NCBI GenBank assembly: GCA_029959555.1
Contig: JASCPI010000008.1
Span: 1 to 64,000 of the forward strand
DNA: 64,000 bases
From: Lysobacteraceae bacterium PS02065
GTDB lineage: Bacteria; Pseudomonadota; Gammaproteobacteria; Xanthomonadales; Rhodanobacteraceae
Direction of reading: 5' to 3'
Part shown: piece by piece, positions 47,482 to 54,850 of the stretch
How positions within the stretch are numbered: position 1 is the stretch's first letter
Layout: every line of letters starts with the position of its first letter
The notes under the pieces: model-generated
What the model saw: the letters and a program-made list of their open reading frames with translations, nothing else
The model's database searches: none
What the model was told of the DNA's origin: nothing
Translations under genes and position numbers: made by a program

Positions 47482-48357
47482 TCAGCGATAGAGCGCGGCG
47501 TAACCCTCGGCATCGACCGCGCTCAGGCCCAGCGTGTGGAACTGCTCCCACATTCCGCGCCAGCGCTCGGCATCGCGCTCCACGGGGCAGACGAGACGCG
47601 GGCAGGTGTCGGCGAGGATCGCGTCCATGAGCGCGCTCGGCTCGGTGCCGCTGTAGCGGTACCAGAGCGCTGCCGCCTGGGTCGGATCGTCGCGGCAAAG
47701 CTGCGCACCCTGCCCAATCAGCCGCGTGACCGTCGCGACGACGTCCGCGTGCTCGGTCAGGAAACGCTCCGAGGTGAACAGCTCCAGCGCCGAGAAGTTA
47801 TGCAGCCCGACCTCGGTGCTCGTAATGAAGTGTGTGTCCATGCCCTCGAGCCGCGCCTCGACGCCCTCGAAGTTGGCGAAGCACAGCCACGCGCCGTCGA
47901 AACCGGCCCGCAGGTTGGCCAGATGCTCGAAACCCGCACCTTCGATCTGCACCTGCTCCGGCGAGAACGCCGCGCCACGCTGCGCACACCAGCGCGCCAG
48001 GATCTCGCGCGCGATCGTGTCGGTCACGCCACCCGCCACCGGCGACGCGAGCCGCACCGTGCCGCCCGCGAGCAGACGCTCGCCCGCCGCACGCTGCAGC
48101 AGGATCCCGCCATCGGTCTCAAAGAAGCAGCCCAGCGCCTTCAGCCCCGGACGATGCGCATCGATCATGTGCAACGGCTCGTTGCACGCGAACGCGATAT
48201 CGCCGCTCACCGTCGCCGCGAGACCATCGTAGTGGTCATCCGGCACCAGCAACTCGAGCTCGAGGCCCGCATCGCGGAACCAGCCGAGTTCGATGCCGGC
48301 GATCAGCGGCAGGTGGTCTGGGTTGAGGAACCATTCGAGGGAGACATGAAGATTCAT
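47482..48357 (-). CDS. THI5/NMT1-like substrate-binding protein without signal peptide
   Basis: 291 aa from the ATG at 48357, giving MNLHVSLEWFLNPDHLPLI, which is the normal start of this cytoplasmic subgroup. Type II periplasmic-binding fold (SsuA/THI5-like): AGIELGWFRDAGLELEL, then ACNEPLHMIDAHRPGLKALG, and CFFETDGG. No signal peptide and no ABC permease or ATPase next to it. The gene begins 14 bases beyond the stop of the low-GC ORF, exactly where base composition jumps back to high GC. Confidence 0.82.
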   Translation of the reverse strand: MNLHVSLEWFLNPDHLPLIAGIELGWFRDAGLELELLVPDDHYDGLAATVSGDIAFACNEPLHMIDAHRPGLKALGCFFETDGGILLQRAAGERLLAGGTVRLASPVAGGVTDTIAREILARWCAQRGAAFSPEQVQIEGAGFEHLANLRAGFDGAWLCFANFEGVEARLEGMDTHFITSTEVGLHNFSALELFTSERFLTEHADVVATVTRLIGQGAQLCRDDPTQAAALWYRYSGTEPSALMDAILADTCPRLVCPVERDAERWRGMWEQFHTLGLSAVDAEGYAALYR

Positions 48358-48371
48358 TATAATAACGTCAA

Positions 48372-48956
48372 CTAATCTTGCCACATAGAAATATGAGCCC
48401 GCGAAGGAGATCGTGAATAGAAATTGCTATTATTAGACCACCTTAGCGAACTGTAACCAGAATTCAGTCTATGCCCAACCCATCTAGAATCAATTAAAGG
48501 TGACTCATTTGGGAAATTAAGAAGCAAAAGTCGACCCATGTAACTCACCCAATCACCTCTCGCCATTAACTCACTCGAATATGCATGAAAACTTCTTCCG
48601 CTGTCGAAAATTACAAAGCTCTTCGCAAGCTTCCTTCCAATAATATCGTAAAATCTTGAGTCGCGGAAAAACGAGGACTGCCTACCCACAAAATCAATCA
48701 TCGGTATATGAGAAGCGCGCCCACGTTTATTAATCACAAGAGAATCAATAGCTAACTCCCATGATTCAGGCAGACAGCTTATCATCGACTCTAGCCAGTC
48801 ATCGTTAACATCGAGTATTGGGACTTTAATAATCTTGCGCTCGTCCATGACTGATTGGGGTCTATACTTATACATAGAAAACTGAAGAATGAGATCATCC
48901 CTCCCGTCGTAGACGAGAGACTTCACAAACTCAATAGGATGACCGCTCCAGCTCAT
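48372..48956 (-). CDS. uncharacterised protein with primase-like (AEP) motifs, coupled to dGTPase
   Basis: 194 aa, no signal or membrane segment. ATG overlaps the dGTPase stop (ATGA), so translation is coupled. Three short motifs occur in the order and rough spacing of archaeo-eukaryotic primase (AEP) folds: a hydrophobic strand ending in Asp (HIPMID, D88), SGRSFH at 119-124 (AEP motif II is SGxGxH), and PLIDSRW (D156) followed by RLNSGYSSLRWSNN. Motif I has only one Asp instead of DhD, so catalysis is doubtful. Tryptophan- and serine-rich C terminus. Could be a nucleic-acid or nucleotide sensor working with the dGTPase. Family assignment is an inference. Confidence 0.72.
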   Translation of the reverse strand: MSWSGHPIEFVKSLVYDGRDDLILQFSMYKYRPQSVMDERKIIKVPILDVNDDWLESMISCLPESWELAIDSLVINKRGRASHIPMIDFVGRQSSFFRDSRFYDIIGRKLAKSFVIFDSGRSFHAYSSELMARGDWVSYMGRLLLLNFPNESPLIDSRWVGHRLNSGYSSLRWSNNSNFYSRSPSRAHISMWQD

Positions 48957-50377
48957 TTAACCCCCGTCAAAATCTGATAAGTCTGCAAAGCAAAGACATC
49001 AGTCATTCCGGATACGAAGTCTATCACGAGCCTCACACGATGACACCACGAAACTTCTTCAGATGAAATCGATTCGCATGATCGCCTGTATGCAGCCAAA
49101 TACTTTGGCGGTAGCAATGAGTAAAGGCGCTGAGCCCCAATCAATGATGAAGTTACACGCGATCCCCCGAGACGATCAAAATCGGAGGAGGAGAGATCTA
49201 TAAGATCCTCATACTTATTCAATATTCCGAGTATAGCAGCATAACCAGTCAACTCAAGTTCAACTGAAGCCCTACGTCCATATAGTTTCGTTCCCACCGT
49301 TCTTCGTATAGCACTTAACAGTATGTAGTGGTCGCTGCTGGCGTCAAGTAGATTCGTTGCCTTACCTTCAAATATTTCCGAATGCTTCTGCACGTAGGCC
49401 TCAGCAGCCTCGTCCACAAGAGCTCGAACAAGCATCGTTCTAAGGAATACGGTTCTTTCCACAGATTGCGCTTTTTCATTAGCTCTATTAATCGATTCAT
49501 CAAGTAGCGCCGTGCTCTTACCCTCACTAACAAGCAAGTTATGCACAGCGCCATAAAAATCATCATGCGTTGTGTAACATTTCTCTATACCATCCTCGAT
49601 GTCGCTAAGACAATAAGATATGTCGTCAGCTGCCTCCATCAAAAATGCGAGTGGGAAGCGAGCCCGCTCAGCCAGTCCGAATTTATCGCGCACCCAGGCC
49701 CAAGATCCCATCTCTGATGAGAAAATTCCAGCCTTCTTGAGGATAGGATTATCTTTGTCCATACCTCCCGCACCGCAAGGATACTTAACAAGTGACGCAA
49801 GTTGCGCCGCTGTTAAGTTCATACCGTAGCCATCGACGCCAGCCAAACTGCATACAATACGAAAGCCCTGAGGATTACCATCAAATACCGTAAAATCTTT
49901 TGTTGAATCGTCATGCATTATAACCTTAGGATCAAAGCCAGACTGACAGTTCTTAAGCTTCTTACTTACAAAGGAATCGGCCCACTTGGCGATTGCTGCC
50001 TCGCCAAAGTGACCAAAAGGAGGATTTCCTATGTCATGAGCTAAGCACGCAGTATCTACGACGTTCGCCAAAGCAAGCCTTTCATCAGGACCGAGCTTAT
50101 ATTTCGTTAGAAATTTCTTCTTATCGATCTTTTCTACCACACTTGTTGCTATGTATCTTCCAACATGAGCCACCTCCAGTGAATGCGTCAGTCTAGATCT
50201 AACAGCTGCATTCTCCTCCAAAGGAAAAACTTGCGTCTTTCTTTGCAATCTTCGAAAAGCAGCAGAGTAAAGAATTCTTGACCGATCACTCTCATACTCT
50301 TCAACCATGCTTCGAGGGCCACGCGAGCTTACCCGCTGGCGAACTGGCGCAAGCAAATCTTTATAGTTCTCTCGCAC
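48953..50377 (-). CDS. dgt: deoxyguanosinetriphosphate triphosphohydrolase (HD domain)
   Basis: 474 aa from a GTG at 50377 with GAGG upstream. dGTPase family: RSRLTHSLEVAHVGR (metal His65), LAHDIGNPPFGHFGE (H114-D115) and MEAADDISYCLSDIEDG (Asp251/252), plus the N-terminal RRLQRKTQVFP. The enzyme hydrolyses dNTPs, mainly dGTP, to the nucleoside and triphosphate in the cytoplasm. Its low GC and its unlinked, two-gene setting differ from a housekeeping dgt and match dGTPases shown to protect bacteria from phages by draining dNTPs. First gene of the island operon. Confidence 0.93.
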   Translation of the reverse strand: MRENYKDLLAPVRQRVSSRGPRSMVEEYESDRSRILYSAAFRRLQRKTQVFPLEENAAVRSRLTHSLEVAHVGRYIATSVVEKIDKKKFLTKYKLGPDERLALANVVDTACLAHDIGNPPFGHFGEAAIAKWADSFVSKKLKNCQSGFDPKVIMHDDSTKDFTVFDGNPQGFRIVCSLAGVDGYGMNLTAAQLASLVKYPCGAGGMDKDNPILKKAGIFSSEMGSWAWVRDKFGLAERARFPLAFLMEAADDISYCLSDIEDGIEKCYTTHDDFYGAVHNLLVSEGKSTALLDESINRANEKAQSVERTVFLRTMLVRALVDEAAEAYVQKHSEIFEGKATNLLDASSDHYILLSAIRRTVGTKLYGRRASVELELTGYAAILGILNKYEDLIDLSSSDFDRLGGSRVTSSLIGAQRLYSLLPPKYLAAYRRSCESISSEEVSWCHRVRLVIDFVSGMTDVFALQTYQILTGVK

Positions 50378-50497
50378 AGAAAAACCTCACATTAATTAAT
50401 AATTTAGCTGTAAATTTGAAAACTAAAGTTAATTATGTTTCTACCAAGCCCCTCATATCGCGGATAATTTTTAGGTGCAACCATGCTGCCGCTCGCC

Positions 50498-51133
50498 TTA
50501 TCGCTTCTGCATTGCCTTGAAGGTGTCGCGCGTCTCCGCGTCAACCACGTCGACCTGGCGCTTGCGCTGCAACATCGCCCTCTGCCCTTCCGGCAACTGG
50601 CAGTTGCGCGACAGCGTCATCGCCTCGTCGCCGTTGCGCGCGGTCGCGTCCTGCAGGTTGACGACGACGGCGAGCGTGTCGCCGAGTGGTTCGAGCGTCA
50701 CGCAGACCTCGTCGATCATGTCCATCGTGCGATGGCGCTGGCCGTCGACCATGACGATGAGGTTGTCGCGATCGAGCCAGACCACGGATTTCACGCCGGC
50801 CAGCGGACGCACGGCGGCGCGTGCGGCTTCGCGATGGATCGGCCGTGTGGCATCGGGCAATCGCGCCGAACGGCGCATGTCCTCGGCGACGGCGCGGGCG
50901 TGGCCTTCGACGGCCTTCTGGTCGCCGAGCACGGCCGACACACGTGCGCCGACGATATGCGCGGCGGTCTTGGTCGGATCGAGCGGCTGCCCGGCCTGCT
51001 GCGGTTTGCGTGGCGGCGGTGCGCGCTCTTCATCCGCCTGGCGCGCGCAGGCGCCGAGCATCGAAGCCGCCAAGCCGAGGCCAAGCCATGAAGCACGCGC
51101 ACGATGCGCGTGGAGTCCCTTCCCCATCTCCAC
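50498..51133 (-). CDS. lipoprotein of unknown function
   Basis: 211 aa (starts at 51133 or 51127). Signal peptide ending in the lipobox MLGAC. After a short proline-rich spacer a single domain of about 150 residues follows, with a strand SVVWLDRDNLIVMVDGQ and a DEVCVTLEPLGDTLAVVVNLQD strand pair; two cysteines remain (EVC and NCQ), probably paired. Unknown family. Its stop lies at the right edge of the low-GC island. Confidence 0.72.
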   Translation of the reverse strand: MEMGKGLHAHRARASWLGLGLAASMLGACARQADEERAPPPRKPQQAGQPLDPTKTAAHIVGARVSAVLGDQKAVEGHARAVAEDMRRSARLPDATRPIHREAARAAVRPLAGVKSVVWLDRDNLIVMVDGQRHRTMDMIDEVCVTLEPLGDTLAVVVNLQDATARNGDEAMTLSRNCQLPEGQRAMLQRKRQVDVVDAETRDTFKAMQKR

Positions 51134-51413: not shown

Positions 51414-52685
51414 TTACGGCTGCACCGTCACCTCGAACCCGTGCGCGAACAGCGCGAGCTGCACGCGTGTGACCACCTGCGTCGCGGCGTTGTAATTGGC
51501 GTTGCCGGCCTGGTTCGCGGCGAGCGTGCAGGTGCCGAAGGCGACCATGGTCACGGTGGTGCCGTTGACGGTGCAGACGGCCGGATCGAGTGAGGAATAG
51601 ACGATGGCTTGGCCCGCATTCGGCGTCGCGCTGGTGGCGATCGGCGCGATCGCGAACGTGCCGCCGGGCACGAGCGTGCGACTGCCGACCGCCTGCGCGG
51701 GGAACGTCAGCGTCTGGCTCGCGCGAGCGATGTTGAACGATTGCGTGCGCTGCGCCGCGGCGGCCCACGAGGCGTTGCCGGCCTGGTTGGCCGTGAGCGT
51801 GCAGGTGCCGGCCGCGACGACGGCGACGTTGCTTGCGCTGACCGTGCACACCGTCGGCGTGGTCGAGCCGTAGGTGATCGGCAGGTTGGAATTGCTCGTG
51901 GCGGGCGGGTTGATCGGGAAACCGTAGCCGGGGCCGTAGATGCGCGCGGGTTGCGCCGGGAAGGTGATGGTCTGGGTGCCTTGCGTGGCGTCGCCCTGCA
52001 GGGTCAGGAAGAAGGACGGCCCATATTCCGCCGGTACCTGGACGGGCACCACCTGCCGTTGCCCGGTGCCGATCTCCACGGGCGAGTACGTGTAGATCAA
52101 CGAACACGCCGCGCCCGAGGCGAGCACGAACGGCGGCGTGGCGCAGGTGCCGCCGACGCGTGCGAAAGGCGAGTTCGCGGTCGCGATCGACGTCACCCGG
52201 ACCGGGCCGCTGCCGATGCTGGCGAGTTGCACAGTGCGCTCGGCGCTGGTGGCACCGACCGGCGTCGTCGGGAACGAGACCGCCGTCGACGGCACGATGT
52301 CGAGCAGGCCGCGCACGCCCGTGCCGGTCAGGTGCACCTGCCCCACGCTCTGGCCACTCGACAACATCGTCATGGTGTCGCTGTAGGGCTGCTCGCGCGT
52401 CGGCATGAAGAGGACTTCGACCGTGCACGTGCCTTGCGGGGCGACCGGGAAGAACCTGCTGCAGTTGCCGCCGACAACCACGAATTCCTGATTGATGGAG
52501 GTGCGGTCGTCCACCGTTACGGGCTGGCTGCCGGTGTTGCGCCACGCGATCACCCTGTGGACCTGGGTGTGGACCTGCACGCCACCGAAAGCCACGGGCG
52601 ACGGCTCCGCGACGAGCTGCGCACGGACACTCGCGGCGCTGCACAGCAGCAGCACGCCGATCAGCGGACGGACGAAGACGTGCAT
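51414..52685 (-). CDS. secreted choice-of-anchor/Ig-like protein, tandem copy 1
   Basis: 423 aa from the ATG at 52685 (AGGAGCTTCCGC before it). Signal peptide residues 1-22. Two choice-of-anchor D-type Ig-like domains (residues 25-230; AFGGVQVHTQVHRVIAWRNTG) precede two MBG-like domains with the landmark phrases QTITFPAQ, YGPGYGF, VCTV, VVAAGTCTLTANQAGNASW. Ends LALFAHGFE plus five residues, the GFE tag. Very similar to the next gene upstream, from which it was duplicated. Possibly a surface or extracellular binding protein. Confidence 0.85.
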   Translation of the reverse strand: MHVFVRPLIGVLLLCSAASVRAQLVAEPSPVAFGGVQVHTQVHRVIAWRNTGSQPVTVDDRTSINQEFVVVGGNCSRFFPVAPQGTCTVEVLFMPTREQPYSDTMTMLSSGQSVGQVHLTGTGVRGLLDIVPSTAVSFPTTPVGATSAERTVQLASIGSGPVRVTSIATANSPFARVGGTCATPPFVLASGAACSLIYTYSPVEIGTGQRQVVPVQVPAEYGPSFFLTLQGDATQGTQTITFPAQPARIYGPGYGFPINPPATSNSNLPITYGSTTPTVCTVSASNVAVVAAGTCTLTANQAGNASWAAAAQRTQSFNIARASQTLTFPAQAVGSRTLVPGGTFAIAPIATSATPNAGQAIVYSSLDPAVCTVNGTTVTMVAFGTCTLAANQAGNANYNAATQVVTRVQLALFAHGFEVTVQP

Positions 52686-52761
52686 GCGGAAGCTCCTTGG
52701 ATGACGTGACCGATCGGAACGCGCGGGCGTCCGCCAATACCGGCGGGACAGCCCCTCATGC

Positions 52762-53105
52762 GCTTGAACGACGGAAGGGGCACGGGACTGCCATCGGGTT
52801 TCGGCGGGATGGCGAAGGCGGCGTGTGCGCAATCGCTCCGGGGATTTCGGAGGGGGGCGTCGGCATGCGATCCATGTCGGCAGCCCCTTGCGACGACGGA
52901 TTCACCCAGCGTGACGCCGATCCTCACGACACGTCGCCCCGGCCCAGGCCGGGGCCAGCGCCTTTCTGGGTGATGCGTGGCCATGCCCGCTTGCCGAGAT
53001 GCCGCTTACGCGGCCCAACCCAGCACACATCGCCCTCGCCGTCGCATCGAAGGCACGGGGCCCCGGCCTGCGCCGGGGCGACGAGCGTTCCATGTTGTTG
53101 TGAAG
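52762..53105. repeat. duplicated upstream block with family E inverted pair (copy 1)
   Basis: Block of about 340 bases repeated at 54510-54850. It contains GGACTGCCATCGGGTTTCGG, CAATCGCTCCGGGGATTTCGG and the two family E units: CGTCGCCCCGGCCCAGGCC (52932-52956) and the inverted GGCCCCGGCCTGCGCCGGGG (53059-53083). The two E units face each other over about 100 bases. The rest of the gap holds nothing else. Confidence 0.8.
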
Positions 53106-53178: not shown

Positions 53179-54447
53179 CTACTGCGACAACACCTCGAAC
53201 CCATGCGCGAACAGCGCCAGCGGCACGCGCGCGATCACCTGCGTGGCGGCGTTGTAGTTGGCGTTGCCCGCCTGGTTCGCGGCGAGCGTGCAGGTGCCGG
53301 AGGCGAGCATCGTCACGGTGGTGCCGCTGACCGTGCAGACGCTGGTGTCGAGCGACGAATAGACGATCGGCTGGCCGGCGTTCGGCGTGGCACTCGTCGC
53401 GAGCGGGCTGATCGCGAACGTGCCTCCCTGCACGAAGGTGCGGCTGCCCTGCACCGGGAACGTCAGCGTTTGCGCAGCGCGCGCGATGGCAAACGACTGC
53501 GTCTGCTGCGGAGCGGCACCCCACGAGGCGTTGCCGGGCTGATTGGCCGTGAGCGTGCACGTGCCGGCCGCGACGACGGCGACGTTGCTTGCCGCCGTGG
53601 TGCAGACGCCCGGCGTGGTCGAGCCGTATGTGATGGCGAGGCCCGAGGTCGCCATCGCCGGTGGGTTCACGGGGAAGCCGTAGCCGGGGCCGTAGATGCG
53701 CGGGGATTGGGCCGGGAACGTGATCGTCTGGATGCCTTGCGTGGCGTCACCGCGTAGATCCACGCTCCAGGGGCTGCCCACATGGATCGGCACCTCCACG
53801 ATCAGGGTCTGCTGCTGCGCCTCGCCGATCGCCACGGGCGAAAAGGTGTAGGTCAGCGAGCAGCGATCCTGAGCCTGGAGCACGAACGGCGTCTGGCCGC
53901 AGGTGCCACCGACGCGCGCGAACGGAACCGTGGCCGAGGTGATCGACAGCACCTCGACAGAGCCACTACCGACGCTGATCAGTTCCACCGTCTGCGACAC
54001 ACTGGTGGTGCCCACCGCCGTGGACGGAAAGTTGATCGACCCGAACGGAGACACCTGCAGCTGTCCCTGCACGCCTCGGCCGCTCAGGTGGACGGGCGTG
54101 GGATTGAAGCCGCTTACTGTCAGGGCGACGGTGTCGCTGTACGACACCGCGGTAGGGGGACGGAAGGTGTAGTCGAGCGTGCAGCTGGCTTGCGGCAGGA
54201 TGACGAACGGTGCCGCGCCGCAGCTCCCGCCGGAGCGCGTGAAGACCGGGTTGACGACTGACATCGCGCTCACGATCAGCAGCTGGCCGCCGGTATTGCG
54301 CAAGGTGACGATCTGCGGCGCGCTGGTGGCGCCGACCTGCTGGTCACCGAAGTCGGTGAACGGAGGCGACACGCTGAGCTGCGCATGCACACCGGCAGCG
54401 CTGCACAGCAGGAGCACACCGACGAACACACGGAGGATGGACGGCAT
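53179..54447 (-). CDS. secreted choice-of-anchor/Ig-like protein, tandem copy 2
   Basis: 422 aa from the ATG at 54447, with the same signal peptide pattern (VGVLLLCSAAGVHAQ). Same domain order as copy 1: two Ig-like domains, then two MBG-like domains with YGPGYGF and GTCTLTANQPGNASW. Divergence is concentrated in the Ig-like half, while the MBG half is almost identical, suggesting recent duplication with or without gene conversion. Ends LALFAHGFE plus four residues. Same direction as copy 1; likely its parent. Confidence 0.85.
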   Translation of the reverse strand: MPSILRVFVGVLLLCSAAGVHAQLSVSPPFTDFGDQQVGATSAPQIVTLRNTGGQLLIVSAMSVVNPVFTRSGGSCGAAPFVILPQASCTLDYTFRPPTAVSYSDTVALTVSGFNPTPVHLSGRGVQGQLQVSPFGSINFPSTAVGTTSVSQTVELISVGSGSVEVLSITSATVPFARVGGTCGQTPFVLQAQDRCSLTYTFSPVAIGEAQQQTLIVEVPIHVGSPWSVDLRGDATQGIQTITFPAQSPRIYGPGYGFPVNPPAMATSGLAITYGSTTPGVCTTAASNVAVVAAGTCTLTANQPGNASWGAAPQQTQSFAIARAAQTLTFPVQGSRTFVQGGTFAISPLATSATPNAGQPIVYSSLDTSVCTVSGTTVTMLASGTCTLAANQAGNANYNAATQVIARVPLALFAHGFEVLSQ

Positions 54448-54509
54448 GCGGAAGCTCCTTGCAGGATGGATGCGGGGTGCGCAACGCGCAACGCGCGCGA
54501 AGCTCCTCA

Positions 54510-54850
54510 TGCTGCTGAACGACGGAAGAGGCGCGGGACTGCCATCGGGTTTCGACGGGATGGCGGAGGCAGCGTGTGCGCGATCGCCCCGGGGATTTCG
54601 GAGGCGTAAGTCGGCATGCGCTCCATGACGGCGATGCCTTGCGACGACGGATTCACCCGCGGACACGCCGATCCTCACGACACGTCGCCCCGGCGCAGGC
54701 CGGGGCCAAGCGCCCTTCTGCGTGACACGCCCATGACCGCTTGCCGAGATGCCGCATACGCGGCCCGACCCCGCACCCCGCCCTCGCCATCGCATCGAAG
54801 GCACTGGGCCCCGGCCTGCGCCGGGGCGACGAGCGTTTTACCTGCGAGCG
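54510..54850. repeat. duplicated upstream block with family E inverted pair (copy 2)
   Basis: Partner of 52762-53105. Contains the family E units at 54683-54707 (CGTCGCCCCGGCGCAGGCC) and, inverted, at 54807-54831 (GGCCCCGGCCTGCGCCGGGG). The intervening sequence is about 75-80% identical by eye to copy 1. Confidence 0.8.

Follow-up and report, generated by a model that had tools for sequence, protein, structure and literature searches.

A two-gene defence system built on a dGTPase has been described under the name of Clover (Yamaguchi et al. 2025, PMC12265719). dTTP activates its dGTPase, CloA, and p3diT restrains it. This dinucleotide is made by the second component, the Pol-beta nucleotidyltransferase CloB, and the loss of the CloB activity is toxic (PMC12265719). 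In the human dNTPase SAMHD1, oligonucleotides in the allosteric sites inhibit the dNTPase activity (PMC7854603).

Here an AT-rich gene pair is compared with Clover and with other dGTPases. It was found in a stretch of 64,000 nucleotides of Lysobacteraceae bacterium PS02065 (contig JASCPI010000008.1), which is called the window below. The initial annotation considered the pair a two-component dGTPase system not described before; this is out of date, since in Clover a dGTPase and a regulatory nucleotidyltransferase already make up a two-gene defence system. The new element is the partner of AEP (archaeo-eukaryotic primase) fold, which is undescribed in the openly readable literature searched. 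In the same literature no experiments on either of the genes were found.

The gene pair and its borders

The following features were assigned in the window:

48340..50495 (approximately), no strand: low-GC island, apparently an acquired two-gene cassette (GC profile and border search)
48372..48956, minus strand: AEP-like partner, 194 aa, PF24387, ATG start (Pfam, invariant residues, AlphaFold2, Foldseek)
48953..48956, minus strand: ATGA overlap of the stop and start codons, translational coupling (sequence)
48953..50377, minus strand: HD-superfamily dGTPase, 474 aa, GTG start (NCBIfam PRK04926, PADLOC, catalytic residues, tree)
50378..50497, minus strand: AT-rich leader upstream of the dGTPase, to the right island border (GC 38% at 50400, 63-70% from 50500)

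The dGTPase gene comes first and the second gene follows on the same minus strand with an overlap of 4 nt (ATGA), the junction being GTTAAATGAGC. The GC content of the pair is 44.7% against 68% in the flanks; it drops from approx. 68-70% to 43-47% in 500-bp windows, and to 38-54% in 100-bp windows. The gene arrangement and the GC drop had been recognized correctly in the initial annotation, while the value of 35-40% given there was too low.

On the right the island reaches to the flanking gene's stop codon, and the homology to the relatives ends there (50493-50507). In the leader (50378..50497) no sigma-70 promoter-like site was found by a simple scan. On the left the island ends about 15 bp inside the beginning of an NMT1/THI5-like gene, whose ATG is at 48357. 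This high-GC gene (47482-48357, minus strand) starts 15 bp past the stop codon of the AEP-like gene. It was absent in all the 30 relatives searched, thus the left-side comparison gave no empty site. There were no clear repeats at the borders of the island, the longest shared word being 8 nt. Farther along the window, two adjacent genes of the minus strand (51414-52832 and 53179-54804) code for paralogous ASH-domain proteins with similar repeats, which probably arose by tandem duplication.

The dGTPase reached 446.2 bits with the NCBIfam Dgt equivalog model PRK04926 (cut-off 405), but only 177.9 bits with the anti-phage model NF041026 (cut-off 400). The PADLOC dGTPase model matched it with 224 bits (E = 8e-67). 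In the alignment with CloA and Dgt, H65, H114-D115 and D251 correspond to the metal-binding residues, and H123/E126 complete the catalytic set. These six residues, i.e. the HD motif and the HE dyad, are invariant in the dGTPase alignment. As judged from the alignment, the enzyme is catalytically complete, with all the catalytic residues kept. Using it as query, no second dGTPase was detected in the genome of the window.

The AEP-like partner and its pairing with the dGTPase

The second gene had been regarded as uncharacterised, but its family can be assigned: the Pfam entry PF24387 ('AEP-like', 'Archaeo-eukaryotic primase 1D-like') matches it with 118.7 bits (cut-off 27, E = 2e-34). The AlphaFold2 model of the partner had a pLDDT of 79.7 and a pTM of 0.79; the pLDDT of the first model was 53, and it rose to about 80 when virus and archaeal rows were added to the alignment. 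The best PDB match of the model by Foldseek was the primase RepB' (probability 0.99, E 7.8e-3, TM 0.46), followed by H. pylori HP0184, the RepB' catalytic domain, human Pri1 and the LigD polymerase domain, and among viral models it matched RepB-type primases. Since the TM-scores are modest (0.37-0.46), the model supports the fold class and not the details of the active site. The sequence-profile search of the partner against the PDB gave no AEP match. The AEP fold of the partner is supported by Pfam and by a predicted structure of fair confidence. HP0184 (PDB 2atz), an H. pylori protein of unknown function, was in the top two matches of both AEP-like models, and may be an unrecognized AEP relative.

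An alignment of seven PF24387 members from bacteria, archaea and viruses revealed P85, D88, G120, S122, H124, Y126, D156, W159, L171 and R172 as invariant residues. Motif II of the AEPs (sxH) is present as G-x-S-x-H-x-Y (S122-x-H124), motif III is represented by D156, and the region of R172 possibly corresponds to the downstream Arg motif IV described for AEPs (PMC5862659). In motif I the partner has HIPMID-F with D88 but without the second acid: in place of hhhDhD/E, all the PF24387 members aligned carry PMIDF-V/N/C/A with a single Asp. The partner resembles the AEP superfamily (RepB' and the LigD polymerase domain by fold) in its fold, in the sxH of motif II, in the Asp of motif III and in one Asp of motif I. 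It differs from the superfamily by the missing acid, by having no helicase, ligase or zinc domain and by its coupling to a dGTPase.

In all the seven bacterial PF24387 genes found, a dGTPase gene is located immediately upstream on the same strand. They come from Proteobacteria, Acidobacteria and Gemmatimonadetes and from one plasmid: three of the 398 genomes of the phylum sample (that of the window included), one Gemmatimonadetes genome, two genomes of the Acidobacteria sample and one Pantoea plasmid. The pairing rests on these seven pairs from sampled, not exhaustive, genomes. The gene order is conserved in the other six genomes or plasmids, where the identity is 28-45%, and the two genes overlap by 4 nt in five pairs (L025, L026, L027 and L028 among them) and by 8 nt in one (L029). 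The dGTPase and the AEP-like gene form a conserved, overlapping operon. In the Pantoea megaplasmid (L007 10430-12603) an in-frame TAA interrupts the dGTPase, which is annotated as two genes and is possibly decayed. Apart from this plasmid, no further copies were found in the named phages, plasmids and E. coli genomes searched.

In the maximum-likelihood tree of 40 dGTPases the seven AEP-linked enzymes formed one clade (98/90), present in 98% of the bootstrap trees, and none of the sampled dGTPases outside this clade had an AEP neighbour. The pairwise distances of the dGTPases and of the AEP-like proteins correlate (r = 0.59, permutation p = 0.009). When 274 genomes of the class were searched for the dGTPase, no clade member lacking the AEP neighbour occurred among the matches; the best match without such a neighbour had 213 bits, as compared to 256-333 bits for the remaining paired enzymes. 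Dgt-type enzymes encoded on plasmids have similar scores in tblastn (about 260-277 bits), but those sampled branch elsewhere in the tree, and no AEP gene is annotated next to them. The earlier assumption that the second gene is an operon-coupled partner is therefore borne out: it stands beside all the seven clade dGTPases found, and among the matches in the 274 genomes it was not missing beside any dGTPase of the clade.

Every pair is more AT-rich than its surroundings, the pair/flank GC values of the seven loci being 45/68, 35/46, 39/65, 45/51, 49/73, 53/57 and 33/51%, and no neighbour gene family is common to the loci. AT-richness together with neighbours varying by locus is expected of a mobile cassette, and in terms of base composition the pair looks horizontally acquired at every locus, in line with the initial proposal. 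A conserved third gene was considered because of the upstream genes of 914-970 aa in four loci; this was rejected, as these are mutually dissimilar (polA-like, nrdA-like, restriction-methylase, and an unrelated or spurious frame).

The L027 pair comes directly after a gene for a type IIG restriction-methylase, the sole restriction-gene neighbour in the seven loci, while beside most of the copies PADLOC recognized no defence gene; ten neighbours scanned singly gave none, and of the PADLOC matches to mad3, mad8, AriA and others, that to the restriction-methylase was the only one assigned to a neighbour. The association with defence islands is thus weak in this sample. In L027 (9493-15134) the type IIG-like restriction methylase, a 219-aa gene with no Pfam or PADLOC match, the dGTPase and the AEP-like gene form a same-strand run.

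PF24387 relatives were also seen in viruses and in an archaeon:

L013 601-1230; L067 6001-6573; L068 5761-6636: stand-alone viral AEP-like genes (L068 weak, below the Pfam cut-off)
L003 8720-9967: AEP-like domain of a Pacearchaeota MAG, fused behind about 230 residues

The three virus contigs (160-180 kb) have no dGTPase detected in their records, and none was found in the Pacearchaeota genome of L003; the N-terminal part of about 230 residues in the archaeal fusion gave no Pfam match. The family consequently has at least one use without a dGTPase. The viral copies could be counter-defence genes or genes of viral replication.

Comparison with Clover and with the Dgt enzymes

The pair resembles Clover in having two genes, a dGTPase with all the catalytic residues kept and a small adjacent partner of nucleotide-polymerising fold. 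However, CloB is a Pol-beta nucleotidyltransferase with the signature [D/E]h[D/E]..h[D/E]h, while the window partner has the PF24387 AEP fold of another superfamily. In the CloA-clade controls L045 and L056 an NTase-like neighbour with SDIDLVV and SDVDTVV, respectively, was found, thus the comparison can tell Clover from the AEP-linked system.

The residues were compared with those of PDB 9p8s, taken as the Salmonella CloA since its residue numbering fits PMC12265719. From the p3diT pocket (R29, R34, D37, N75, Q311, R314) only the last Arg is kept in the window dGTPase, as R313, the other positions being V25, S30, S33, H71 and V310. R34, D37 and Q311 are absent from all the seven AEP-linked dGTPases, and R29 and N75 are not conserved. 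In the dTTP activation site (R47, D61, K256, S418, N420) R43 is kept and the others are A57, E265, P423 and K425; D61, K256, S418 and N420 are absent from the whole AEP-linked clade. The sampled CloA clade keeps R29, R34, D37, N75, Q311, D61, K256, S418 and N420 throughout. In the tree, CloA and its relatives form a separate clade (100/100) which does not include the window dGTPase. Since the pocket residues of both ligands are lost, the clades are separate and the partners belong to different superfamilies, membership in Clover was rejected; the layout is the same.

By sequence, the nearest relatives of the window dGTPase are the housekeeping Dgt enzymes (E. coli Dgt and P. aeruginosa PA1124, PRK04926), with which it has S30, A57, A58 and C256 in common. 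The AEP-linked dGTPases are not placed inside the Dgt clade; they are a sister clade to E. coli Dgt, PA1124 and the Pseudoalteromonas and Aliarcobacter enzymes, and differ from the housekeeping type by being always accompanied by the AEP partner, by their AT-rich islands and by their rare and patchy occurrence. The single-gene anti-phage dGTPases (NF041026; PADLOC dGTPase) are of the same superfamily, but the window dGTPase has a dedicated partner.

The possible function of the pair

We consider it moderately probable that the pair is a mobile anti-phage module which works like Clover without being Clover, and which has a regulator of AEP fold. The dGTPase would be the effector, its depletion of dGTP stalling the DNA synthesis of the phage. 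The AEP-like protein would be the regulator, by which the dGTPase is kept off in healthy cells and released or activated in infection. It may read or make a ligand derived from dNTPs or DNA that acts on the allosteric interface of the dGTPase, candidates being a primer-like pppNpN dinucleotide or a bound dNTP or ssDNA. Since the pocket residues are missing, p3diT bound in the manner of CloA is an unlikely ligand. Precedents of such a control are the dinucleotide which governs CloA and the oligonucleotides acting on SAMHD1. Points against the module are that most of the copies have no defence gene recognized next to them, and that an AEP-like gene occurs in three virus contigs and in an archaeon with no dGTPase detected. 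The initial interpretation is partly supported, and phage defence by the pair is plausible.

With regard to the regulator, there is some chance that the AEP-like protein derives from a primase and now acts as a second-messenger enzyme, which would join two or a few dNTPs into an oligonucleotide controlling the dGTPase. Primases begin by making a dinucleotide (PMC10345425), and such a de novo synthesis could produce a pppNpN ligand closely resembling p3diT. The missing second acid of motif I is against a catalytic AEP, and mutation of a motif I or III residue ablates canonical Prim-Pols (PMC10345425).

An AEP without one of its metal-binding acids makes a non-catalytic sensor a serious rival, to which we give a similarly tentative standing. 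The loss of the motif I acid would remove the catalysis, and the protein would read dNTPs or ssDNA, binding them via motifs II and III and holding the dGTPase inactive by contact. The release of the dGTPase, on this tentative reading too, would occur when phage replication shifts the nucleotide pool or exposes ssDNA. D88 is the single motif I acid in all members, and the nucleotide-binding S122, H124, D156 and R172 are invariant. The sister position of the AEP-linked dGTPases to E. coli Dgt is also in favour of a sensor, as E. coli Dgt is stimulated by ssDNA. However, the remaining active-site residues are kept as strictly as in an enzyme, H83, which is invariant among the cellular copies aligned, could replace the lost metal ligand, and other AEP families stay active despite altered diagnostic motifs (PMC5862659).

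A function outside defence is improbable: the pair would be a mobile nucleotide-pool or repair module close to housekeeping Dgt, combining dGTP control with primase-like gap repair. One pair is located 52 bp after nrdAB-like genes and another 72 bp after a polA-like gene (neighbours named from sequence, not by family search), which counts against a defence module and also fits nucleotide metabolism. The dGTPase is above the NCBI Dgt equivalog cut-off, it adjoins the Dgt clade and it is the only one detected in its genome. On the other hand, the pair is patchy and rare (3/398 phylum genomes), and AT-rich pairs in surroundings of 46-73% GC with changing neighbours are what is seen with accessory genes, of defence or selfish, rather than with core metabolism. 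Still less probable is a toxin-antitoxin-like cassette selected for the maintenance of mobile DNA, with the dGTPase as toxin and the AEP-like protein as antitoxin: the genes are two, small, overlapping, AT-rich and mobile, and the loss of the partner activity in Clover makes the dGTPase toxic (PMC12265719), but six of the seven copies lie on genome contigs, next to unrelated genes and without any recognized plasmid or integrase gene, the effector comes first in the gene order, and this reading overlaps with that of defence.

If the anti-phage module with its AEP-fold regulator is real, defence by regulated depletion of dGTP would have at least two evolutionary origins, its regulators being unrelated but alike in biochemical type (nucleotidyl polymerases), and primases would join the folds used in immune signalling or sensing. 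If the primase-derived messenger also proved true, the control of a dGTPase by a nucleotide signal would have arisen twice, from Pol-beta (Clover) and from a primase. In case the AEP makes a ligand controlling the dGTPase, the viral genes of L013, L067 and L068 would be counter-defence candidates that provide this same ligand. The NCBI models would label this dGTPase as a plain housekeeping Dgt and leave its partner nameless. The seven diverged pairs are a ready test set.
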